A stretch of 64,000 nt of DNA from Alphaproteobacteria bacterium (GTDB lineage: Bacteria > Pseudomonadota > Alphaproteobacteria > Reyranellales > Reyranellaceae), in contig JAFKFL010000010.1 in the NCBI GenBank assembly GCA_017308235.1, positions 310,001 through 374,000 on the forward strand. The letters run 5' to 3'. The translations under genes were made by a program, and so were the position numbers. Numbering within the stretch: the first letter of the stretch is position 1; every line of letters starts with the position of its first letter. Below are positions 38,378 through 51,079 of this stretch, one piece after another. Under the pieces are notes generated by a model. That model searched no databases and had not been told where the DNA came from. It saw nothing but the letters and a program-made list of their open reading frames with translations.

Positions 38378-39799
38378 TCAATTCCCGGTCATCACCGCTG
38401 AAGGCTCGGCTGGACCAAGCCCGAAGGTGAGCGCGGCCTGCAGGTCGATTGCGGCGAGATCGAAGTCTCGCCGCGCGTCGAGAGCCGCGGCATTTGCCGC
38501 GATCCGCGCGCGCTGGTCGGCCAGAACCCTGAAGTAGTCGACGCGCATGCTTTCGTTGGCGAGGACCGCCGAGCCGTAGCGCAATGCCATCTGCTGCGAC
38601 ACCACCTGGCGCAACGGCAGAAGGCGCTTCTCGTAGAAACGCGCGATGTCATAGGTGCTGCGATAGGCATCGGAAGCAATGCGGGCCTCCGACCGGGCAT
38701 TCACAGCTTTCGCGGCGAGCCGGTTGACCGCGCGCATATAAGTTTCGCGTGCCTTGCGTTCGCGCGCCTCGCCGGTGTCGAAGATCGGGATCTCCAGCTC
38801 GAGTGCCCCGCCGCCGCGCGTGATCGAGGTGTTGGAGGTGGTGAGCGGGTTGGCGTTCTCGTTGTTCACCAAACCGGCAAGCTGCAACATGGAGACGTAA
38901 CGAGTCGCCTGCGTGAGCCTGAGCGACTTGGCGAGCGCCACGACATCGTGGCGGGCCATCACCAGGTCGACGCGGCGATTGATTGCCTGGGTCTCGATAT
39001 CGGTCGTTGCGTCGGGCTCTCCCGGCAGGGGCGGCAAATCGTCGGGCAACTTGAAGTTCACGTCCCCGCCCCACAGGCCAAGGAGTCTCGTCAGGGTCTC
39101 GCGCTGGCGTCGCGCTGCCAGCCGCACCTGGCCGACACGCACGCTCAGCTCGGCATAGAAGGCCGCAATCTCCGCCTGATCGAGCTGGTCGCCGCCGCCT
39201 GCTTCGCCAAGCTTGGCGATCAGGCGCGCAGACTCGTCGGCGGTACGCCGTGCCTCGTCGAGGAAGCGGACCTGGCGCTCGGCCGCAATCGTGCGCACCC
39301 AGGCGCGGCGCACGTCGCCCGCCAGCGCCAGCGTCGTCTGCACCGCGCCGTGCTTGGCATGCTCGAAATGCTCGGCGGCGATCTTGCTGCGCTGAGGCAG
39401 CGTAACCAGGCTCAGGATGTCCTGGATCAAACGCAGCTCGAAGTCGGCGACACCCGTGCCACCGAAGTTCGCGAACGACAGCCTGGGATTGGGCGGCAGA
39501 CTTTGCTGCACATAGTCCGCCTCGGAGATGCCGAGATCGTTGTAGGCCGCCTGCAGATCGCGATTGCCAAGCAGCGCCACCTGCACTGCGGCGTCCGACG
39601 ACAGGGGCTCGGTCAACAATGCGGTCACCCGCTCACGCGCTTTCTGCGCCGCTTCGACGCTGTCGATCTTGACGGCTTGCGCGCCCGTTTCGCGCTTCAC
39701 GTCCTGCGCCACCTCGCCCATGCCGCCATCAGGTGAGAACGACGCGCAGCCGGCCAGGAGCACAGGGGCGACCAGGAAGAGAACGAAGCGAGCGCTCAT
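38378..39799 (-). CDS. Outer-membrane efflux lipoprotein of Cus-type system
   Basis: This 473-residue TolC-like channel has a signal peptide and lipobox LLAGC (acylated C18). OEP repeats are recognisable around residues 80-265 (VALLGNRDLQAAYNDLGISEADYVQQSLPPNPRLS) and 280-460. Its start overlaps the small lipoprotein gene by four bases (ATGA), placing it as the last gene of the Cus-type operon. Sequence style is nearer to CzcC/CusC-like metal channels than to OprM. Predicted role: outer-membrane exit for Cu(I)/Ag(I). Confidence 0.9.
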   Translation of the reverse strand: MSARFVLFLVAPVLLAGCASFSPDGGMGEVAQDVKRETGAQAVKIDSVEAAQKARERVTALLTEPLSSDAAVQVALLGNRDLQAAYNDLGISEADYVQQSLPPNPRLSFANFGGTGVADFELRLIQDILSLVTLPQRSKIAAEHFEHAKHGAVQTTLALAGDVRRAWVRTIAAERQVRFLDEARRTADESARLIAKLGEAGGGDQLDQAEIAAFYAELSVRVGQVRLAARRQRETLTRLLGLWGGDVNFKLPDDLPPLPGEPDATTDIETQAINRRVDLVMARHDVVALAKSLRLTQATRYVSMLQLAGLVNNENANPLTTSNTSITRGGGALELEIPIFDTGEARERKARETYMRAVNRLAAKAVNARSEARIASDAYRSTYDIARFYEKRLLPLRQVVSQQMALRYGSAVLANESMRVDYFRVLADQRARIAANAAALDARRDFDLAAIDLQAALTFGLGPAEPSAVMTGN

Positions 39800-39975
39800 G
39801 GCCTGTCTCCAATGCCGTGATTGACGGTGCCCGCCATGACCGGGCGATAGGGACGGTCAGCGGCGGGCGCCGTGGCATCGTCGGGATTGGGTGGAGCGGA
39901 TACCGCAGGCAGCGGCGCACTGTTGCTGCAGGCGGCGAGCAGCCCGACGAACAGGACGAGAAAAATGGTCCTCAC
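39796..39975 (-). CDS. Small lipoprotein embedded in the Cus-type operon
   Basis: This 59-residue product has a signal peptide and lipobox LLAAC (C16), then a Pro/Ala-rich tail with no further Cys or His pair. The GTG start at 39973-39975 overlaps the CusA stop (GTGA), and the stop overlaps the channel gene start (ATGA). These four-base overlaps at both ends make it very likely to be a true gene despite its size. It is the only gene between pump and channel, so it may be an accessory subunit of the efflux complex. No named family recognised. Confidence 0.75.
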   Translation of the reverse strand: MRTIFLVLFVGLLAACSNSAPLPAVSAPPNPDDATAPAADRPYRPVMAGTVNHGIGDRP

Positions 39976-42900
39976 GAGTGTGCCTCCCGAACGGCCGCCG
40001 GCACGGCAGCGCGCAGTTGCCAGCCCTTGACCAGGCTGTAGATGACGGGAATGACGACAAGGGTGAGCAGCGTGGAGCTTGCCATGCCACCCACCATGGG
40101 CACGGCAATGCGCTGCATCACCTCCGATCCGGTGCCGGTGCTCCATAGCAGCGGCAGCAGGCCCGCGACGATCGCGGTGACCGTCATCATCTTGGGCCGC
40201 ACCCGCTCGACGGCGCCTTCGACGATCGCTGCCCGCAGGTCGGCCGCGGTGGGCGCGCGGCCCTCGGCGGCGCAGACTTCGCGGCGATGCGCCCATGCCG
40301 AGTCGAGATAGATCAGCATCACCACGCCTGTTTCGGCGGCAACGCCGGCAAGTGCGATGAACCCCACCGCGACCGCGACGCTCATGTTGAAGCCCATCCA
40401 CCAGATGAGCCACAGTCCGCCGACCAGCGAGAACGGCAGCGACAGCATCACAATCAACGTCTCGGCGATGCGGCCGAAGTTGAGATAGAGCAGCACGAAG
40501 ATCAGCAGCAGGGTCGCCGGCACGACGACCTGCAGCCGCGCCTCGGCCCGCTGCAGATATTCGAACTGGCCGCTCCACACGGCGACAGTGCCGGGCGGCA
40601 GCACGACCTTGTCGCGCACCGCCTTCTGCGCATCGGCGACATAGCCCGCAAGATCGCGGTCGCGAAAATCGACGAAGACATATACCGCAAGCCGCGCATC
40701 CTCGGTACGAATCGAGGTCGGCCCCTGCGTCAATCTCACCTCGGCCAGTTGTCCGAGGGGCAACTGGCCGCCATTCATGGTTGGCACCAGGACCTCCTGC
40801 GCAATAGCGCGCGGATTGGAGCGCAGGTCGCGCGGATAGCGCACGTTCACCGAGTAGCGCTCGCGGCCCTCGACGGTGGTCGTCACCGTCTCGCCGCCCA
40901 GCGCGCTCGCGACCGCCTGCTGCACGTCGTCGAGCCGAACGCCGTACTGTGCCAGCCGCTCGCGGTCGGGAACGACATCGAGGAAGTAGCCGCCGGTGAC
41001 GCGCTCGGCATAGGCCGATGTGGTACCCGGCACAGTGCGGATCGCCGCCTCGACTTCGCGCGCGGCCTTCTCGAGCTGGCCGTAATCATGGCCCAAAAGT
41101 TTGACGCCGACCGGCGTACGGATGCCGGTCGCCAACATGTCGATGCGGGCGCGGATCGGCATGGTCCAGGCGTTGCTGATGCCAGGGAACTGCAATGCGC
41201 CGTCCATCTCGGCGACCAGCTTGTCGACCGTCATGCCGGGCCGCCATTCCGACCTGGGCTTGAGGTTGATCACCGTCTCGAACATCTCGAGCGGTGCCGG
41301 ATCGGTCGCCGTCATCGCGCGGCCAGCCTTGCCGAACACCGATGCGACTTCGGGGAACGATTTGATGATCTTGTCCTGGGTCTGCAGCAGCTCGGCCGAC
41401 TTGGTGACCGACAGGCCCGGCAACGTCGTCGGCATGTAGAACAGCGTGCCCTCGTTCAACTCGGGCATGAACTCCGCGCCGATACGCTCTGCCGGCCAGA
41501 TCGTGACGGCGAGCGCCGCCGCGGCCAGCGCGACCGTGAGCCAGCGCGCACGCAGCACCAAGCCGATCACCGGTCGATAGAGCCAGATCAGGGCGCGGTT
41601 CACCGGGTTGCGATGTTCGGGCAGGATCCGCCCACGCACGAACAGCATCATCAGTGCCGGCACCAATGTGACCGACAGCAAGGCCGCCGATCCCATGGCA
41701 AGGCTCTTGGTCCAGGCGAGCGGCTTGAACAGCCGACCCTCCTGATCCTCCAGCGAGAAGATCGGCAGGAACGATACGGTGATGATCAGCAGACTGAAGA
41801 ACAGCGCCGGCCCCACTTCCACCGCAGCATCGACGATTGCTGCGCCGCGCGACTGGCCGGGCTGCAGCCGTTCGAGGTGCTTGTGGGCGTTCTCGATCAT
41901 GACGATGGCGGCGTCGATCATGGCGCCGATGGCGATGGCGATGCCGCCGAGACTCATGATGTTGGAGCCGACGCCCAGCGCCTGCATGGCGATGAAGGCC
42001 ATCAATACACCGATCGGCAAGGTCACGATCGCCACCAGCGCCGAGCGCACGTGCAACAAGAAGACGACGCAGACCAGCGCCACGACGACGCTTTCCTCGA
42101 TCAGCGTCGATTTCAGCGTGTCGATGGCGCGATGGATCAGATCGGAGCGGTCATAGACCGTCTCGATATGCACGCCTTCCGGAAGGCTCGGTGCCATCTC
42201 CTTGATCCGTGCCTTCACCTTGTCGATGACGTCGAGCGCGTTCTGGCCGAAGCGCTGCAGGGCGATGCCGGCCACAACCTCACCCTCGCCATTGAGCTCG
42301 GTGACGCCGCGCCGCTCGTCGGGCCCCAGCTCGACGCGTGCCACGTCGCGCAGCAACACCGGCGCTTGACCGTCAGCCGTCAGCACGATGTTCCTAAGAT
42401 CGTCCGGTCCCTTGAGGTAGCCACGGCCGCGCACCATGAACTCGGTCTCGGCCATCTCGACCACGCGGCCGCCGGTTTCTCGATTGCTGGCGCGGATCGC
42501 GTCGATCACCTGGCCGAGCGGGATGCCGAAGGCACGCAGCTTCGCCGGATCGACGACGACGTTGTACTGACGCACGAAGCCGCCGACGCTCGCCACCTCG
42601 GCCACGCCCGGCGCCTTGGCAATGCCGAAGCGGATGTACCAGTCCTGCAGCGAGCGCAGCTCGGCGAGGCTCCTGTCAGCAGCAGTGACGACATATTCGT
42701 AGACCCAACCGACGCCGGTCGCGTCCGGGCCGAGCGCGGGCTTCACGTCTGATGGCAGCTTGGCGGTACCGGAGTTCAGATATTCGAGCACACGGCTGCG
42801 CGCCCAATAGATGTCGGTGCCGTCCTCGAAGATCACGTAGACGAACGACACACCGAAGAAGGAGAAGCCGCGCACCGCCTTGCTGCGCGGCACGGCGAGC

Positions 42901-43118
42901 AGCGCCGTGGTCAGCGGATAGGTCACCTGGTCCTCGACCACCTGCGGCGCCTGCCCCGGCATCTCGGTGTAGACGATCACCTGGGTGTCGGAGAGGTCGG
43001 GAATGGCGTCGAGTGGCAATCGCCCGACCGAATAGAGGCCGCCGGCGGTGAGCGCGACCGCGAGGATCAGCATCAAGAGAATGTTGCGCGCCGACCAGCG
43101 GATGACCGACGCGATCAT
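39972..43118 (-). CDS. cusA: Cu(I)/Ag(I) RND efflux permease, CusA-like
   Basis: This 1048-residue inner-membrane permease carries the three periplasmic methionines that bind copper in E. coli CusA. They are M562 (YMPTTLPG), M612 (PLEMFET) and M661 (RIDMLATG), each exactly 11 positions before CusA M573, M623 and M672 (numbers from memory). TM4 reads GGIAIAIGAMIDAAIVMIEN (D402, E409), the CusA/HME4 form without the first CzcA aspartate. It overlaps the adaptor gene upstream and the small lipoprotein gene downstream by four bases each. Predicted role: export of Cu(I) and Ag(I) from the periplasm and possibly the cytoplasm. Confidence 0.95.
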   Translation of the reverse strand: MIASVIRWSARNILLMLILAVALTAGGLYSVGRLPLDAIPDLSDTQVIVYTEMPGQAPQVVEDQVTYPLTTALLAVPRSKAVRGFSFFGVSFVYVIFEDGTDIYWARSRVLEYLNSGTAKLPSDVKPALGPDATGVGWVYEYVVTAADRSLAELRSLQDWYIRFGIAKAPGVAEVASVGGFVRQYNVVVDPAKLRAFGIPLGQVIDAIRASNRETGGRVVEMAETEFMVRGRGYLKGPDDLRNIVLTADGQAPVLLRDVARVELGPDERRGVTELNGEGEVVAGIALQRFGQNALDVIDKVKARIKEMAPSLPEGVHIETVYDRSDLIHRAIDTLKSTLIEESVVVALVCVVFLLHVRSALVAIVTLPIGVLMAFIAMQALGVGSNIMSLGGIAIAIGAMIDAAIVMIENAHKHLERLQPGQSRGAAIVDAAVEVGPALFFSLLIITVSFLPIFSLEDQEGRLFKPLAWTKSLAMGSAALLSVTLVPALMMLFVRGRILPEHRNPVNRALIWLYRPVIGLVLRARWLTVALAAAALAVTIWPAERIGAEFMPELNEGTLFYMPTTLPGLSVTKSAELLQTQDKIIKSFPEVASVFGKAGRAMTATDPAPLEMFETVINLKPRSEWRPGMTVDKLVAEMDGALQFPGISNAWTMPIRARIDMLATGIRTPVGVKLLGHDYGQLEKAAREVEAAIRTVPGTTSAYAERVTGGYFLDVVPDRERLAQYGVRLDDVQQAVASALGGETVTTTVEGRERYSVNVRYPRDLRSNPRAIAQEVLVPTMNGGQLPLGQLAEVRLTQGPTSIRTEDARLAVYVFVDFRDRDLAGYVADAQKAVRDKVVLPPGTVAVWSGQFEYLQRAEARLQVVVPATLLLIFVLLYLNFGRIAETLIVMLSLPFSLVGGLWLIWWMGFNMSVAVAVGFIALAGVAAETGVVMLIYLDSAWAHRREVCAAEGRAPTAADLRAAIVEGAVERVRPKMMTVTAIVAGLLPLLWSTGTGSEVMQRIAVPMVGGMASSTLLTLVVIPVIYSLVKGWQLRAAVPAAVREAHS

Positions 43119-44317
43119 TTGCCGTCTCCCGCCGTGAAGGCGGCGAGCGCCGCACGCAGGTTGCTCTCGGCGTCGATCAGGAAGGTGGCCGAGGTCACCA
43201 CCTTCTCGCCGGCCTTGAGGCCGCCGCGCACCTGCACGTAGCCGCCGGCGTGGGCGCCCAGCTCGACGCGGCGCGGCTCGTAGCGGCCCTCGCCGCGCTC
43301 GACCAGCACGACCTGGCGCAGGCCGCTGTCTATTACCGCCGATTCAGGAACTGCAATGGAATTGCCCAGCGGTGTCGCGATCTCGACGGTCGCCGCCATG
43401 TCGGCGCGCAGCAAGCCGTCGGGATTGGCGACTTCGATGCGCAGCCGCGCCGTGCGGCTCTTGGCGCCGACGCTGGGATAGATGAACCCGACCTTGCCGG
43501 CGATCGGCCGGTCGGGCCAGGCGTTGACCGTGACCTTCGCCGGATCGCCCACCTTCACGAAGGCCAGGTCCTGCTCGTAGACATCGGCCATGACCCACAT
43601 GGTCGAGGTGTCGACGATGCGGAACAGCACATCGCCCGGCTGAAAGCGCGCGCCTTCGATCGCCATTTTCTCGATGACGGTGCCGCTCGCCGGCGCCGGG
43701 ATGCCGATGACGCGCGGCGGCGTCTCGCCACGCCGCAACTTGTCGAACTCGGCCTGCGGATAGTCGAGGTTGCGCAAGCGGTTGTCGGCCACCTCCTGCC
43801 GCCCCTGCACGCCGCGCGCCACGAGATATTCCTGCTGCAGCACATTCAGCTCGGGACTGTAGACATCGAACAGCGTCTGCCCGCGCTGCACGACGTCGCC
43901 GGTCGCGCTCACCCGCAGCTTCTCGATCCAGCCGCCGAACCGAGGCGCCACGACATATTGCTTGCGCTCGTCGAACTGCAGGCTCGCGAAGGTGCGGATG
44001 GTGCGGCTGAGCGCGCGCTCCTGCACGACCTCGCTGCGCACGCCGAGCCGTTGCACCTTGTCGAGGCTGATCTTGACCGTGCCGGGCACCGCAGCGGCCT
44101 CGTCGGCACAGACCGCGATATAGTCCATGCCCATGGAATCCTTTTTCGGCACCGGCGAGGTGTCGGGCGCTCCCATGGGATTGCGGTAATATTTGACCTT
44201 GCCGTCCTTGCAGACATCCGATGCCTGCGCCGCTGCGACCGAGGCAAATCCGACGGCGGCCCAAAGGCCGATGAGAGCGGGCACGATCCAGCGCGCCCGA
44301 CGACGTTCCGTTGACAT
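43115..44317 (-). CDS. cusB: Cus-type periplasmic adaptor with metal-binding N-terminus
   Basis: This 400-residue membrane-fusion protein has a signal peptide (about residues 10-32). A heavy-metal-binding segment follows at about 36-72 (KVKYYRNPMG then KKDSMGMDYIAVC), of the type seen in CusB-like adaptors. Further on are a lipoyl half with APRFGGWIEKLRVSATGDVVQRG, a short hairpin at about 160-200, a second lipoyl half (IPAPASGTVIEKMAIEGARFQPGD) and barrel domains. Its stop overlaps the CusA start by four bases (ATGA). Methionines in the N-terminal segment are likely Cu(I)/Ag(I) ligands that hand metal to the pump. Confidence 0.93.
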   Translation of the reverse strand: MSTERRRARWIVPALIGLWAAVGFASVAAAQASDVCKDGKVKYYRNPMGAPDTSPVPKKDSMGMDYIAVCADEAAAVPGTVKISLDKVQRLGVRSEVVQERALSRTIRTFASLQFDERKQYVVAPRFGGWIEKLRVSATGDVVQRGQTLFDVYSPELNVLQQEYLVARGVQGRQEVADNRLRNLDYPQAEFDKLRRGETPPRVIGIPAPASGTVIEKMAIEGARFQPGDVLFRIVDTSTMWVMADVYEQDLAFVKVGDPAKVTVNAWPDRPIAGKVGFIYPSVGAKSRTARLRIEVANPDGLLRADMAATVEIATPLGNSIAVPESAVIDSGLRQVVLVERGEGRYEPRRVELGAHAGGYVQVRGGLKAGEKVVTSATFLIDAESNLRAALAAFTAGDGK

Positions 44318-44389: not shown

Positions 44390-44734
44390 TCAGGATCGAG
44401 GTGGCGTCGGGTCGGGTGGTGGCGAGAGACCGCGCAGGGCTGCGAACCGGTCGGGCCAGATCTCGCTGCCGCCCGCCGGGACCGCGAGTGCGGCGGAGGC
44501 GACGATCAGCGACGGCATCATGCCGACGCAAGCCACCACGCAGCCGGCCGCACTCGGCGGGCACGGCATGCCCTGGCACTCAGGGCAATGCTGGGTGCAA
44601 AGCGTGCCGATGGTTGCATGCGAGTGATCGGCAGAAGAAGCCGACGGCATCCAGGCATACGCAACCGTCGGCAATGCCGCCGCCAACACGGCGAGGCAGC
44701 CCAAAAATGCCGACAGGAAGCGCAAACGCACCAT
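44390..44734 (-). CDS. Small Cys/His-rich membrane or secreted protein
   Basis: This 114-residue product has a signal/anchor helix at about residues 5-27. Next is a Cys/His-rich loop (SADHSHATIGTLCTQHCPECQG, then a further Cys), a second hydrophobic stretch at about 65-90, and a Pro-rich tail. No family is confidently named; it is in the style of small proteins found beside copper and other metal efflux genes. It lies 72 bases ahead of the adaptor gene and probably leads the Cus-type operon. ATG 44734 is preferred over an in-frame TTG at 44776; neither has a strong ribosome-binding site. Confidence 0.6.
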   Translation of the reverse strand: MVRLRFLSAFLGCLAVLAAALPTVAYAWMPSASSADHSHATIGTLCTQHCPECQGMPCPPSAAGCVVACVGMMPSLIVASAALAVPAGGSEIWPDRFAALRGLSPPPDPTPPRS

Positions 44735-44823
44735 ATGGCTATGATGCTGACCGGCAGCCGCATTGCCAAGAGCCAATACATCAAAGATCTGCGACCTTCA
44801 GTCTGCGGATCATAACCGTGTTT

Positions 44824-44848
44824 GCAGGCGTAATAGCATTACGCTTGC
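44824..44848. promoter_or_regulatory. 25-base palindrome between divergent metal operons
   Basis: An inner perfect inverted repeat (GCGTAAT, 3-base spacer, ATTACGC; 44828-44844) is extended by a matching GCA/TGC pair on the outside with one mismatch between. It lies in the 136-base region between the Cus-type operon (start 44734, minus) and the Czc-type operon (start 44871, plus), 22 bases ahead of the latter start. It is best read as an operator for a dimeric regulator controlling both operons. It does not match the CueR/MerR pattern. No regulator gene is adjacent. Confidence 0.65.
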
Positions 44849-44870
44849 TTCATGGGGTATTGGGCGCGCC

Positions 44871-45290
44871 GTGAAATCAAACGTCGCCTTGCTTCCCCGG
44901 TCCCTGGACCGGCTGGCTGCCGCAGCCCTGCTGACGGTTGTGCTTGCCCTGTCTGCGCTGGCGCCGGCCATGGCAATGGCGGCGGAACGGGCGCAGCCGA
45001 CGGCGATCGTGGCCACCGCGAACACCTTGGACGTGCTCGCCGAGGCAGCGTTGTCATCGCAGACCGATGATGGCGACATCGCGGTCTGCGCGATCTGCAA
45101 GAGTCCGGTCTGCACGGGACACAGCGCAGTGCTCACTGCGTCGAGCCCCGACAGCGTTGTGCCTGTCGCCTGGACCCTTGTCCCGTCGCTTCCGTTCGCC
45201 GCGCCGAAGCCGCTGCCGGCCGGCCCGCCCTCTCGCACCTCCGCCCTCCCGCTCGCCTTCAATCCCCGCGCCCCTCCGTCCGTCGGCTGA
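44871..45290 (+). CDS. Small secreted protein with CxxC-x4-C-x2-H motif
   Basis: This 139-residue product has a signal or anchor helix at about residues 13-36. A central short motif VCAICKSPVCTGH at about 82-94 holds three Cys and one His, a plausible metal site. The C-terminus is Pro/Ala-rich. The GTG at 44871 is chosen because it starts the basic-hydrophobic leader; in-frame sequence from 44763 would overlap the operator. It appears to lead the Czc-type operon, 75 bases ahead of the adaptor gene, mirroring the Cys-rich leader gene of the divergent Cus-type operon. No named family assigned (it may be DUF2946-like). Confidence 0.6.
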   Translation: MKSNVALLPRSLDRLAAAALLTVVLALSALAPAMAMAAERAQPTAIVATANTLDVLAEAALSSQTDDGDIAVCAICKSPVCTGHSAVLTASSPDSVVPVAWTLVPSLPFAAPKPLPAGPPSRTSALPLAFNPRAPPSVG

Positions 45291-45365
45291 CGCCGACACG
45301 AGGGTACGCGCCGCAAGACGCACCGCCTTCGCTGTCGGCCCCTGACCGACGACGAGGGAATATCG

Positions 45366-46538
45366 ATGCGTGCTTCGAGAAAGATTATCTATTTTGGCGT
45401 TCTCATCGCTGCGGCCGCCCTGGTCGCATCGATGACGTTCCGTCTCTCGTCCGGTGTGATGGCACCGGAAGCGGCGACCCACGATGAGAAGCCGTCGGCA
45501 CCGGCGCTCAAGCTCGGTGCGGACGAGATCCGCCGCGCCGGCATCAAGGTCGAGCGGCTCGAAGCGGCGGAGTACGCCGCGACGCTGGCAGCCTTCGGCA
45601 CGGTGGGGCCCAACCGCAATGCTTTCGCACGTGTCACCCCGCCGGTCGCGGGCCGGCTGGTTAAAGTAGCCGTAGACCTTGGTGCCGAAGTTCCCGCCGG
45701 CTCACCACTCGCCGTGCTCGAAAGCCCCGAGCTCGCCGAGGCGCGGACCGCATTCCGACAGAGCCAGACCGAGCTCGATCTCGCCCGCCTCAATCTCGAT
45801 CGCGCGCAGAAGCTTTCGGTCGATGCCGCGATCGCCCAGAAGGATGTGCTGCGGACGCGCGCCGACTACGAACGCGCGCGGGCGGCGCTGGCTGCCGCCG
45901 AAGCGCGGCTTGCGACACTGGGCGTCACCGCCGAGCCACCGGCCGGAAGCTCGCCGGCCAGTCTGACGGTGAGCGCGCCGCTTGCGGGGACAATCGTCGA
46001 GCGCACGGCAGTGCTGGGTGAATATGCGCAGGCCTATCAGCCGCTGTTCACCGTCGCTGACCTTTCGACGATCTGGGTCGAGACCAACCTCTACGACCGA
46101 GACCTCGCCCACGTTGCCGTCGGCGCCTCGGCGACCATCACCGTCAGCGCCTATCCGGACCGCCGCTTCGACGGCAAGGTGACCTACATCGGCAATATCC
46201 TCGACAAGGACACGCGCACAGCGGTGGCACGGATCGAGGTCGCCAACGCCGACGGCCGGCTGAAGCCGGGGCTGTTCGCCAATGTCGAGATCGCGACATC
46301 CGGCAAACGGAAGGCGCTGCGCGTGCCCGAGGGCGCGCTGGTGCTGCTGCAGGGGCAGATGACCGCGTTTGTCGCAATCGGCGACGGCTTCGAGCCGCGC
46401 CCCGTCGAGACCGGCGAGCGCAGCGGCGGCATGGTGATCGTGCGGTCGGGACTCGAAGCTGGCGACGAGGTCGTCGTGTCCGGCGCCTATGCGCTAAAGG
46501 CGCGCCTGCTGAAGTCGCAGATCGGCGCCGCCGACTAG
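45366..46538 (+). CDS. Czc-type periplasmic adaptor
   Basis: This 390-residue membrane-fusion protein of the CzcB kind has an N-terminal anchor helix at about residues 6-28. The first lipoyl half has VTPPVAGRLVKVAVDLGAEVPAGSPLAVLESPEL, followed by a coiled-coil hairpin at about 125-180. The second lipoyl half has SAPLAGTIVERTAVLGEYAQAYQPLFTVADLSTIWVETNLYDRD, then barrel and C-terminal domains. No metal-binding extension is seen. It precedes the permease gene by 11 bases. Predicted to couple the pump at 46550 to its outer-membrane channel. Confidence 0.92.
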   Translation: MRASRKIIYFGVLIAAAALVASMTFRLSSGVMAPEAATHDEKPSAPALKLGADEIRRAGIKVERLEAAEYAATLAAFGTVGPNRNAFARVTPPVAGRLVKVAVDLGAEVPAGSPLAVLESPELAEARTAFRQSQTELDLARLNLDRAQKLSVDAAIAQKDVLRTRADYERARAALAAAEARLATLGVTAEPPAGSSPASLTVSAPLAGTIVERTAVLGEYAQAYQPLFTVADLSTIWVETNLYDRDLAHVAVGASATITVSAYPDRRFDGKVTYIGNILDKDTRTAVARIEVANADGRLKPGLFANVEIATSGKRKALRVPEGALVLLQGQMTAFVAIGDGFEPRPVETGERSGGMVIVRSGLEAGDEVVVSGAYALKARLLKSQIGAAD

Positions 46539-46549
46539 GAGCGCGAACC

Positions 46550-49500
46550 GTGCTGACCGCCATCGTGCAGCTTTCGCTGCGCTACAAGCTCCTGGTGATC
46601 GTGGCGTTCGCGATCGTCGTGTTCCTGGGCGTGCGCGCCTTCCAGCAGGTGCCGGTCGACGCGTTCCCCGACGTCACGCCGGTCCAGGTGAATGTCTATA
46701 CCGAGTCGCCGGGCCTCGCCGCGGAGGACGTCGAGACCCTGCTCACCTTTCCGGTCGAGACGGCGATGGCGGGCCTGCCGGGCGTCGAGCAGGTGCGCTC
46801 GATCTCGCTGTTCGGCCTCTCCTATGTCAGCATCTACTTCAGCGATTCGACCGACATCTATTTCGCGCGCCGCCTGGTCGGCGAGAAGCTCGCCGAAGCC
46901 AAGGCCCGCATTCCCGCAGGCTATGGCGAGCCCATCCTCGGGCCCAACTCCACCGGCCTCGGCCAGGTCTTCTGGTACACGATCGAATCGGCCGACCAGA
47001 AGCTCTCGAACATGGACCTGCGCACGCTGCAGGACTGGACGGTTCGTTTGATGGTGCGGACCGCACCGGGCGTCGACGACGTCACCTCATGGGGCGGCCA
47101 CGAGAAGCAGTTCCAGGTCCTGATCGATCCGCAGCGCCTGATCAAGTTCGGTCTTGGCCTCAAGGAGGTGATGGAAGCCCTGGACGCCAACAACCGGCAG
47201 GTCGGTGGTCAGTACATCGATCGTGGCCAGGAGCAATATCTGGTGCGCGGGTTGGGCCGGGTCTCCAGTGTCGCCAACATCGCCGACATCGTGATCGCCA
47301 CACGTGAGGCGACACCGATCCGGATCCGCGACGTCGCCGACGTGAAGGAGGCGCCGGGCCTGCGCTTCGGTGCGGTGACCCGCGACGGCAAGGAAGTCGT
47401 CTTGGGGATCGCGCTGCAGCGCTTCGGCGAGAACGCCGCCAAGGTCGCCGACGTGGTGAAGGCCAAGCTCGATCTTGTGCGCAAGGCGCTGCCGGCCGGC
47501 GTGACGCTCAACGCGGTCTACGATCGCACCGAACTGGTCGAAAAGGCCGTATCGACGGCCGAACGCGCCTTGATCGAAGGATCGGTGCTGGTCGCCGTCA
47601 TCCTCTTCCTTTTCCTCGGCGAGCTCCGATCGGCGGTGGTGGTGATCGTCGCCCTGCCGCTGGCCATGCTGATCGCCTTCATCCTGATGCAGCTGACCGG
47701 CCTTTCCGCCAACCTGATGTCGCTCGCCGGACTCGCGATCGGCATCGGCATGATGGTCGATGGCGCCGTCGTGATGGTGGAGAACAGTTACCGCTTCCTG
47801 AGCCACCACAGGGACCAGGTTGCGAGAGAACATGCCGCGGGCCGCAGCGAGATCATCCTCCGGGCGGCTTCAGAGGTGGTCAATCCGATCGCCTTCGCCA
47901 TCCTGATCATCATCGTCGTGTTCCTGCCGCTGTTCAGCCTGACCGACCTCGAAGGCAAGCTGTTCAAGCCGATGGCGCTCACCATCACCTTCGCCATGGT
48001 GGGATCGCTGCTCCTCACCATGACCTTCGTCCCCGTTCTTTCGGCGATCCTGCTGCGGCCGAAGGAGGAGAAGGACACCTTCATCGTGCGCTGGGTCAAG
48101 GCGTTCTACCTGCCGCTGCTCGACCATGCGCTCGACGCCAAGCGGCAAACCATGACGTTGGCGCTTGCACTGCTCGTCGGAGCGTTCGCGCTGTTCCCGT
48201 TCCTCGGCAAGGAATTCATGCCGCAACTGCAGGAGGGAATGCTGCAGTTCCGCGTCACCAGCATTCCTTCGACGTCGCTCGATGAATCGATCGAAGTGTC
48301 GAAACAGGTCGAGGGTACCCTGGCGGGCTTCCCGCAGGTCACATCGACGCTCGCCACGATCGGCCGGGCCGAGAAGGGTGAGACCAACGATGTGAATTAC
48401 ATGGAGGTCAATGTTTCCCTGAAGCCGATTTCGGACTGGCCGAAAGCGATCTCCTATCAGGCCCTCGCGGCGGAGATGCAGAAGAAGATCGAAAAGGACG
48501 TACCGACAGTGGTTGTCGCGCCGACCCAGCCGATCCAATCACGGGTCGAGGAGCTGATCTCGGGCGTTCGGGCGACGCTGGCGCTGAAGCTCTATGGCGA
48601 GGACCTGCCGACGCTCGACCGCTTCTCCGGCCAGATCAAGAACGTGCTCGCGACGATCCCTGGCGTTACCGACCTGTCGCTGGAGGCCAACACCGGCAAG
48701 CCGCAGATCTCGATTCGGCCCGACGCACCGACCATGGCGCGCTATGGCGTCAGCACCGCGGAGCTCATGGAGATCGTGCGTGCCGGCATCGGCGGCCAGG
48801 CGGTCAGCACGTTGATCGATGGCACGAAGCGCTTCGACATCGTGGCCTGGTTGCCCGAGCAGCACCGCAAGGACATCGAGGCCATCCAGAACATCCCGGT
48901 GCGCACCCAGACCGGCGCGCTGGTGCCGCTTTCCCAGCTCGCCAGGATCGAGGTCGACGATGGTTATTCCTTCGTCCGCCGCGAGCAGCTCCAGCGCTAT
49001 GCCGTGATCCAGATGGATGTCCGCGACCGCGCGGTCGATGCCTTCGTGGCCGACGCCAACGTGGCCATCGCCAAGCAGGTGAAGCTGCCGACCGGCTACT
49101 ACATCGAATGGGGCGGCGCTTTCGAGAACCAGCAGCGGGCGATGACACGGCTCGCGCTGATCGTGCCGCTCACCATCGGCCTCATCTTCATCCTGCTCTA
49201 CACCGCCTTCAATTCGGTACCGCATGCCACGATGATCATCGCCAACGTGCCGTTCGCGCTGGTGGGCGGCATCGTGGGTCTCTTCGTCACCGGCCAGTAT
49301 CTCTCGGTGCCGTCGGCCATCGGCTTCATCGCCGTGTTCGGCGTCGCCATGCTGAACGGCATCGTCCTGGTCTCGTTCATGAACGAGCAGCTCCGCCTCG
49401 GGCGCTCCATCCGCGAAGCCGTGCGCGAAGCCGCCGCGTTGCGATTGCGGCCGGTGTTGATGACGGCATCGGTGGCGATCCTGGGCCTGCTGCCCATGCT

Positions 49501-49687
49501 GCTGTCCCAGGGTGTGGGCGCGGAGACGCAACGACCCCTCGCGACGGTCGTGGTGGGCGGCCTTTTCACCTCGACAGTGCTCACTCTTCTGCTGCTGCCG
49601 CTGATGTACGAATGGGTCGAAATGCGCCGCGAACGACGCGAGCCACGGGTCGATACGGCGCAACCGCTGCAGGGACCGGCGGAATGA
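46550..49687 (+). CDS. RND heavy-metal efflux permease, CzcA/HME family
   Basis: This 1045-residue permease has the HME layout: N-terminal VPVDAFPDVTPVQVNVYTESPG, and TM4 with LAIGIGMMVDGAVVMVEN (one Asp, one Glu). The positions that hold copper-binding methionines in CusA are occupied by other residues (LQFRVTSIPS at the first site), so Cu(I)/Ag(I) is not the likely substrate; divalent ions such as Co, Zn, Cd or Ni are more plausible. The GTG start has AGGAG about 8 bases upstream. Its stop overlaps the channel gene start (ATGA). That channel gene is frameshifted, so the pump may now rely on another channel. Confidence 0.93.
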   Translation: MLTAIVQLSLRYKLLVIVAFAIVVFLGVRAFQQVPVDAFPDVTPVQVNVYTESPGLAAEDVETLLTFPVETAMAGLPGVEQVRSISLFGLSYVSIYFSDSTDIYFARRLVGEKLAEAKARIPAGYGEPILGPNSTGLGQVFWYTIESADQKLSNMDLRTLQDWTVRLMVRTAPGVDDVTSWGGHEKQFQVLIDPQRLIKFGLGLKEVMEALDANNRQVGGQYIDRGQEQYLVRGLGRVSSVANIADIVIATREATPIRIRDVADVKEAPGLRFGAVTRDGKEVVLGIALQRFGENAAKVADVVKAKLDLVRKALPAGVTLNAVYDRTELVEKAVSTAERALIEGSVLVAVILFLFLGELRSAVVVIVALPLAMLIAFILMQLTGLSANLMSLAGLAIGIGMMVDGAVVMVENSYRFLSHHRDQVAREHAAGRSEIILRAASEVVNPIAFAILIIIVVFLPLFSLTDLEGKLFKPMALTITFAMVGSLLLTMTFVPVLSAILLRPKEEKDTFIVRWVKAFYLPLLDHALDAKRQTMTLALALLVGAFALFPFLGKEFMPQLQEGMLQFRVTSIPSTSLDESIEVSKQVEGTLAGFPQVTSTLATIGRAEKGETNDVNYMEVNVSLKPISDWPKAISYQALAAEMQKKIEKDVPTVVVAPTQPIQSRVEELISGVRATLALKLYGEDLPTLDRFSGQIKNVLATIPGVTDLSLEANTGKPQISIRPDAPTMARYGVSTAELMEIVRAGIGGQAVSTLIDGTKRFDIVAWLPEQHRKDIEAIQNIPVRTQTGALVPLSQLARIEVDDGYSFVRREQLQRYAVIQMDVRDRAVDAFVADANVAIAKQVKLPTGYYIEWGGAFENQQRAMTRLALIVPLTIGLIFILLYTAFNSVPHATMIIANVPFALVGGIVGLFVTGQYLSVPSAIGFIAVFGVAMLNGIVLVSFMNEQLRLGRSIREAVREAAALRLRPVLMTASVAILGLLPMLLSQGVGAETQRPLATVVVGGLFTSTVLTLLLLPLMYEWVEMRRERREPRVDTAQPLQGPAE

Positions 49688-51079
49688 GCCTTCGTTCCCT
49701 GGTATCGGCCGCACTGGCGGCCGCGGCCGTCACGCTCGCGTCTGGCTGCGCCACCTACACCGCCAAACCGATCACGCCGGCGGCGACGGCTGCTGCGTTG
49801 GAGCAGCGCACGCTCGACGATCCCAAGCTCGCCGAACTGATCAGCACCGCCCTTCCGCAGCGAGCTGCGACCGCCGGCGGGGTGAACTGGGATCTGTCGA
49901 CGCTCACGCTGGCCACGCTCTATTTCCATCCGGAGATGGAGATCTCGCGCAGCAAGCTCGCCCTTGCCCGCGCCGGCGTCACGACGGCCGGACAGACCCC
50001 CAATCCAACCCTCAACCTCGATCCGACGCGGCACGGCGTCATCGTCGATCCCTCGCCGTGGACCGTGGGGATTCTCCTCAATCTGGTGCTGGAGGCCGGC
50101 GGCCGGCGCGAGAAGCGGCTGGAACAGGCGCGCCATCTTGTCGATGCAGCGCGGCAGGATCTGGCCACGGCCGCGTGGCAGGTCCGCGGCGGCGTGAGGT
50201 CGAGCCTGCTCGACCTGTGGGCGGCCAACGGCCGAGTGCGGCTGACGGCGCTGCGCCTGTCGGTGCAACAGCAGATCGTGGATTATCTCGAACGGCGCTT
50301 CACCGCGGGCGATGTCTCGGCGCTCGATGTCGCGCGCGAGCGCATCAATCTCAGCCAGGCACGGCTCGCCGCAAAAGAAGCCGAGCGGCAGGCGGCGGAT
50401 GCGCGGGCACGGCTGGCGACAGCGGTCGGTGTGCCGTTGCGCGCCCTCGACTCCGTCCAGCTCACCTTTGGAGATTTCGACAAACCCGCGGAGGTTCCCG
50501 ATCTCGCGGCACTCTCCACCGGAGCGCGTGCAGGGCCTCCTGGCGGAATACGAGGCGGCGCAGTCGGCATTGCGACTGGAGATCGCCAAGCAGATCCCCA
50601 ATGTGACGATCGGGCCGGGCTACACCTACGACCAGGGCGACGACCTCTACACATTCGGCCTCAGCACCGAGCTGCCGATCTTCAACCAGAACCAGGGGCC
50701 GATCGCCGAGGCCGAGGCGCGCCGTCGTGTGGCGGCAGCGCAATTCACCGCGCTGCAGGCAAAGATCATCGGTGACATCGACCGGGCCCTCGAGAGCTAC
50801 CGCTCCGCCGTCCGGTCGCTCGCCACTGCCGACGACCTCGTGCGCTCCGAAGAGCGGCGGCGGCGGCAGATCGACCGCTCGTTCCGTCTCGGCGAAGTCG
50901 ATCGCCTCGCCCCTCTCACCGCCGAACAGGAGCAGGCCGTGGTCGCGCTGGCGCGTTTCGAAGCCGTCGTGCAGCAGCGCGAGGCGATGGCGGCGATCGA
51001 GGATGCGGCGCAACGGTCGATCTTTGATACGACCGGCCCGCTCTTTTTGCAGTTCGCGACACGTCCGCCCAAGGACTGA
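49684..51079 (+). pseudogene. Czc-type outer-membrane channel gene with a frameshift
   Basis: This CzcC/TolC-like lipoprotein has an intact start (ATGA overlap with the permease, lipobox LASGC), and OEP sequence continues in frame to about residue 279 (ending EVPDLAALST, base 50520). Homologous sequence then resumes in the next frame (ERVQGLLAEYEAAQ, from about base 50522) and runs to a normal stop at 51079. One extra base, or two missing ones, between about 50518 and 50530 explains this; repaired, the product would have about 464 residues. Both halves look well conserved, so the break is recent, an assembly error, or a programmed shift; no slippery run is obvious. Confidence 0.85.

Follow-up and report, generated by a model that had tools for sequence, protein, structure and literature searches.

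Gene content of the locus

The analyzed window, i.e., the whole 64-kb stretch of DNA, contains two divergent metal-efflux operons, whose start codons (ATG at 44734 on the − strand and GTG at 44871 on the + strand) flank a gap of 136 bp (44735–44870) with a GC content of 53%, versus 65% for the window. The genes and sequence features of the locus are as follows:

38378–39799, − strand: outer-membrane factor of the Cus operon
39972–43118, − strand: CusA-like Cu/Ag RND pump (bit scores, TMH4)
43115–44317, − strand: CusB-like adaptor
44390–44734, − strand: small exported Cys-rich protein, first gene of the Cus operon
44741–44769, − strand: separate sigma70-like promoter of the Cus operon, TTGGCA-17-CATCAT
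44809–44814, − strand: possible −10 element TATGAT of the Cus operon, 15 nt past the core on the opposite strand
44824–44848, no strand: imperfect 25-bp palindrome with a perfect 7-3-7 inner part at 44828–44844 (symmetry)
44830–44842, no strand: Zur-box-like 13-bp core GTAATAGCATTAC (kept at orthologous operons; matrix score)
44858–44863, + strand: probable −10 element TATTGG of the + strand operon, 15 nt past the core and 7 nt before GTG 44871
44871–45290, + strand: small exported Cys-containing protein, first gene of the + strand operon, weakly DUF2946-like (E 0.46, below cut-off)
45366–46538, + strand: CzcB-like periplasmic adaptor (domain and family searches)
46550–49687, + strand: heavy-metal RND pump; closest solved structure ZneA, CusA close behind (bit scores)
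49684–51079, + strand: outer-membrane factor, reading frame broken at ~50506–50534 (by eye and from relatives in L033, L034, and L036)

The pump of the − strand operon scores 1209 bits with CusA versus 552 bits with ZneA, and its TMH4 carries GAMIDAAIVMIEN, in line with a CusA-type RND pump; the assignment of this operon to the Cus type, made in an earlier sequence-only reading of the window, is thus supported. The same reading assigned the + strand pump to divalent metals, which is suggested by the slightly better match to ZneA (652 bits, versus 644 bits with CusA) but weakened by TMH4 (GIGMMVDGAVVMVEN), which lacks the DFG motif of CzcA-type pumps. The DFG-DGA-VEN motif, given for the czrCBA-type RND pump in the accessible text of an earlier study (PMC3637150), is absent from the + strand pump.

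The product of the first + strand gene was aligned with PF11162 (DUF2946) over positions 2–117 of 117 at E 0.46 and 11.7 bits, under the cut-off of 23.7 bits, and no PF11162 match was obtained for the other small proteins of + strand operons tested. Before the adaptor start (~45330–45365) we noticed by eye the sequence GACGAGG, found likewise in L004–L007; in several relatives it faces CCTCGTC as a possible hairpin, and it is possibly a translational signal. The frameshift in the outer-membrane factor, both halves of which are in frame in L033 and L034, may be genuine or may have come from the assembly. A regulator domain was found in none of the 20 neighboring ORFs scanned, a part of the ORFs present, in agreement with the earlier claim that no regulator gene lies nearby.

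The palindrome and the putative promoter of the + strand operon

Positions 44828–44844 form the exact inverted repeat GCGTAAT-AGC-ATTACGC, which confirms the palindrome that the sequence-only reading had placed between the two efflux operons. Its description as a 25-base palindrome holds for the inner 7-3-7 part, whereas the outer pairing in GCAGGCGTAATAGCATTACGCTTGC (44824–44848) is broken at G44827/T44845, so that the arms pair at 10 of 11 positions. The symmetry in itself is only modest evidence, since the window contains 16 perfect 7-3-7 palindromes (~0.03 expected per 136 bp); perfect palindromes with 7-bp arms and gaps of 0–8 number 116. The proposed genome search for GCGTAAT-N3-ATTACGC returned one exact copy of the 17-mer GCGTAATNNNATTACGC in 6.31 Mb and, with up to two mismatches allowed, one more place with two mismatches. 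The exact 17-mer is absent from the other 74 genomes of the family (1/75 overall). The idea that the palindrome is therefore non-conserved was rejected, as its 13-mer core is kept in orthologous promoters.

The dyad is centered ~22 nt ahead of the putative −10 element TATTGG and thus covers the −35 position, where a good −35 element is lacking. Such an arrangement suits either an activator-dependent promoter or a repressor acting at −35.

Conservation of the site

A scan for the adaptor of the + strand operon, covering one genome per species for 84,980 species, yielded eight loci; the named relatives are Reyranella MAGs, Enhydrobacter aerosaccus, and MAGs labelled Proteobacteria or Hyphomicrobiales. 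The palindrome recurs with three or fewer mismatches over the 14 arm positions at five of the eight loci (L055, L056, L058, L060, and L061) and with five mismatches at L059. No palindrome was found at L062 (best candidate with five mismatches), and none was seen in the 495 upstream bases present at L057. In the window and in four of the eight relatives (G032, G040, G038, and G006) the core is followed by exactly 15 bases and then TATTGG, TATGAT, or TATGAG. The mean pairwise identity among these five genomes is 0.88 for the core, 0.73 for the hexamer, 0.40 for the 15-base spacer, and 0.26–0.30 for the flanks. Overall, TAT[TG][GA][GT] stands at equal spacing in five of the seven sites compared; in the remaining two (G045 and L059) the site stands farther upstream and no longer has the hexamer. 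We consider this footprint, kept at orthologous operons, to be better evidence against a chance origin than the symmetry, and the spacing is the ground on which TATTGG is probably the −10 element of the + strand operon.

The neighbors upstream of the + strand operon vary among genomes, which indicates that the site travels with this operon. At the conserved sites the center of the palindrome is GCAT or TCAT, unlike the commonest boxes of uptake genes. The upstream region of L008 (G036, 49% identity) is different, and an alignment search through 385 genomes of the class added a single further relative, a distant one (L093 in G135).

Similarity to Zur-type boxes of zinc-uptake genes

Zur is a zinc sensor of the Fur family. 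The core of the palindrome, GTAA-N5-TTAC, belongs to the GTTA-N5-TAAC type with two symmetric departures, each of which occurs in uptake boxes of the clade, and every core base has its match at the equal position in at least one of the clade's zinc-uptake boxes. The genome contains two perfect matches to GTWATANYATWAC, one in the palindrome and one before a gene for an ABC ATPase nearest to AztA (zinc uptake); among the places with one mismatch are those in front of a gene of the ZnuA family, a receptor of the TonB type, and a CDF exporter. The pattern GTWATANYRTWAC was found in 72 of the 75 family genomes, in excess of a reversed control. Thirty places with this pattern were fetched, and they adjoin relatives of ZnuA (10), ABC ATPases (7), TonB receptors (6), CDF exporters (2), or none of these (5), so that 23 of the 30 have an uptake-gene context. 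The names of the uptake genes (ZnuA, ZnuC/B, and TonB) were first assigned by eye and have profile support for ZnuA (PF01297), the ABC ATPase, and the TonB-type receptor; with AztA the ABC ATPase scores 216.5 bits in the genome under study and 218.1 bits in L044, just under the cut-off of 220.

A positional matrix was built from 23 of 33 loci (L047, L048, L051, and 20 of the 30 loci L094–L123). Excluded were five loci with unrecognized context (L096, L098, L099, L112, and L113), three with known context but an off-centre site in a short locus (L094, L117, and L121), and two CDF loci (L101 and L102). The palindrome scores 14.3, the best in the window (the next place scores 1.7), compared with 24–34 for the training boxes, and this score was not attained anywhere in 6 Mb of random sequence; the matrix is not fully independent, since its training places were gathered by a pattern that the palindrome also fits. 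With reduced training sets the palindrome scores 12.5 (rank 1 in the window) for ZnuC only, 7.5 (rank 1; training minimum 25.4) for ZnuA only, 6.8 (rank 3) for TonB only, and 5.9 (rank 1) for ZnuA and TonB together. Given this dependence on the training set, the likeness to uptake boxes is good yet rests partly on the ZnuC-type boxes. On the 23-box matrix, the functional Caulobacter box considered below scores just 3.4 and the G006 ortholog is negative.

The composite GTAAT-N3-RTWAC-N15-TAT has six matches in the 75 genomes, with none for the reversed control; the matches are on both strands of the window, before the + strand operon in G038 and G040, before a CDF exporter in G038, and before the AztA-nearest ABC ATPase in G068. 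When the Caulobacter box was searched across the class, allowing at most two mismatches, 3 of 385 genomes had matches.

Several further boxes were noticed at related genes. Before the CDF exporter of G038 (L127, 8259–9252), GTAATATCGTAAC is followed by 15 bases and TATACG six bases before the ATG, the same layout as in the promoter of the window. The CDF exporter of the genome under study (L049, ~1440–1530) is preceded by the palindrome TTGTTCA-AG-TGAACAA and, directly before the start, by the Zur-like GTAACACTATAAC, which is replaced by GTAACGCTATAAC in L101 and L102; because of the additional palindrome and a promoter-like TTGACG/TATACA upstream, the L049 box was not counted as support. A DUF1223 gene (PF06764 match in L047) stands divergently from the zinc-type ABC ATPase across a Zur-like box in L047, L100, L104, L106, L114, L115, L121, and L123.

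Candidate regulator and proposed mechanism

Three Fur-family genes were found in the genome, one identified as IrrA above the cut-off, one nearest to Fur but under the cut-off, and one nearest to Zur (G000:C11:31381; best model NF008646, 120.6 bits, below the cut-off of 167). The sequence-only reading had left the controlling protein unnamed and supposed that it may be encoded elsewhere. The second part probably stands, with the zur-like gene as the candidate; as to the first, Zur is now the most likely identity.

On balance, we favor the view that the palindrome is a Zur-type operator of a zinc-activated promoter of the + strand operon, possibly with output in both directions. From these comparisons we infer Zur as the regulator, its binding to the box, activation rather than repression, and a possible two-way output. 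When zinc is plentiful, zinc-loaded Zur would bind the off-consensus box, which covers the −35 position in a weak promoter with TATTGG 15 nt past the core, and would help RNA polymerase to start the operon for the small exported protein, adaptor, RND pump, and outer-membrane factor. It is sensible to expect that a weaker box at an exporter would be filled only at higher zinc. Against Zur stand the score of the candidate protein below the family cut-off, the score of the palindrome well below that of every uptake box, and the exceptions among the orthologous sites: the negative score in G006, the lack of a site at L062, and the displaced sites without the TAT hexamer in G045 and L059. Further points against it are the partial dependence of the likeness on one class of training boxes, the low score of the functional Caulobacter box, the association of boxes over −35 with repression, the Caulobacter activator box being upstream of −35 and its promoter unshifted by Zur in vitro, and, in the + strand operon, the missing DFG motif and the DUF2946 match below cut-off.

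Possible output toward the Cus operon

Relatives of CusB, at E 1e-60 or lower, were found in 39 of the 75 family genomes. Upstream regions were surveyed for 30 loci, including the window, of the 47 places listed; two of them (L069 and L081) hold just 105 and 518 upstream bases. A Zur-type core GT[AT]A-N5-T[AT]AC was present upstream of none of the 29 other Cus operons, two of which have the 17-mer with three mismatches at −230. Elements related to TTGGC were recognized by eye before the same first gene in many relatives. The head-to-head arrangement with the + strand operon was found in none of the relatives examined: where both operons occur, they are on separate contigs (G006 and G045) or are separated by ~6 kb that contain genes for a ZntA-like ATPase and a CDF exporter (G038). 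The recurrence of the site with the + strand operon elsewhere and the 29 Cus operons without the core indicate that the site belongs to the + strand operon by descent.

The two operons may be coupled, because of the TATGAT on the opposite strand, at exactly the conserved spacing from the symmetric box and in this genome only. This hexamer, noticed after the fact, shares five of six bases with TATAAT. The chance of a hexamer within one mismatch of TATAAT at that spacing is 0.43%, that of TAT[GT][AG][GT] is 0.24%, and allowing spacings of 14–16 gives 1.3%, for an overall range of about 0.2–1.3%. Such a hexamer was found on the reverse strand at none of the six other sites of + strand operons.

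A competing explanation, to which we give a little less than even credence, is that the operator serves the + strand operon only, the TATGAT is coincidental, and the Cus operon uses its separate promoter, with either kind of regulator. The 29 Cus operons without an upstream core, the TTGGCA-17-CATCAT promoter, the missing reverse-strand hexamers, and the post hoc recognition of TATGAT all agree with it; its difficulty is that a near-consensus hexamer of such low chance probability stands at the exact spacing, and does so only in the locus that has a divergent operon. The sequence-only reading proposed that a single operator could couple both operons. The mirrored TATGAT, a possible −10 element judging by its spacing, makes driving of both operons from one box plausible but unproven; on the other side, the site came with the + strand operon. 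In the mechanism that we favor, the same bound Zur may thus also raise expression of the Cus operon, which would keep its own promoter. A fuller version, in which the single Zur box with mirrored −10 elements at 15 nt is a bidirectional zinc-activated core promoter that links Cu/Ag export to zinc status and arose when the + strand operon with its operator came beside the Cus operon, is tentative and rather doubtful.

Other possible regulators

As the main rival to activation by Zur, the palindrome could instead be the operator of another metal sensor, e.g., a repressor of the ArsR/SmtB or TetR type whose gene lies elsewhere and which would cover the −35 position of the + strand promoter and be released on metal binding. 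The position suits a repressor, the GCAT or TCAT center differs from the commonest uptake boxes, and the score falls below all of them; nevertheless, we regard this explanation as unlikely, though serious, since no gene for such a regulator was found among the neighbors scanned, each core base has its counterpart in the zinc-uptake boxes of the clade, and the box-15-TAT layout is also seen ahead of a CDF exporter and of a gene for a zinc-type ABC ATPase.

Control by a CueR/MerR-type regulator or a two-component system (CusR/CopR), which the presence of a copper/silver operon might suggest, is very improbable. In MerR promoters the dyad sits between −35 and −10, whereas here its center is 22 nt before the putative −10 element and over −35, which upholds the earlier statement that the pattern does not fit CueR; the sequence is also unlike the boxes of CueR and CusR, and no two-component pair was found among the neighbors scanned. 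That the palindrome is a functionless product of chance is scarcely credible, in spite of the 116 perfect 7-bp-arm palindromes in the window, in view of the conserved footprint within diverged flanks.

Comparison with known systems

The zinc-regulated czrCBA operon of Caulobacter (CC2720-26, czrCBA-zntA) is a parallel to the + strand operon under the favored Zur mechanism. According to the accessible text of its description (PMC4176598), zinc induction is lost in a zur mutant, mutation of GTAA in the box GCCGTAATTAAGTAACAGA abolishes induction, the promoter was not shifted by Zur in vitro, and the first gene encodes a DUF2946 periplasmic protein. As far as that text goes, both loci begin with a small periplasmic gene followed by RND efflux genes, both have an inverted repeat (GTAAT-N3-GTAAC in Caulobacter, GTAAT-N3-ATTAC here), and neither has an adjoining regulator gene. 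The Caulobacter pump is of the HME2 type with DFG (CzrA), unlike the + strand pump, which lacks it; the activator box there is upstream of −35, and here it is over the −35 position; and a divergent Cu/Ag operon is not mentioned in the text available for CC2720-26.

The zinc-uptake boxes of the clade (ZnuA-like, ABC ATPase, and TonB receptor) share the 13-bp core and its symmetry with the palindrome, but score 24–34 versus 14 here, and the logic would be activation instead of repression if Zur is indeed the regulator. As stated in the accessible part of a review, Zur boxes often lie over the −35 of repressed genes, and Zur activates the exporters zitB of Streptomyces and xc2976 of Xanthomonas (PMC6103462); czcR, an exporter regulator of Pseudomonas, is likewise described as activated by Zur in the available text of PMC9827704. 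In these three cases, as proposed here, Zur switches on metal export, although, as far as these sources describe them, the sites differ in sequence or position and the targets are CDF or regulator genes, not an RND operon.

Among the matches listed in a narrow search of the open-access literature, we found no prior account of a Zur box between divergent efflux operons or of zinc control in Reyranella. Zur control of metal export is already known in kind, and the possible addition of a Cu/Ag pump is perhaps a small twist. If the Zur interpretation is true, Zur activation of metal export would extend from Caulobacter to another alphaproteobacterial clade, with a compact box-15-TAT promoter layout, and a relocated operon could put a copper/silver exporter under zinc control.
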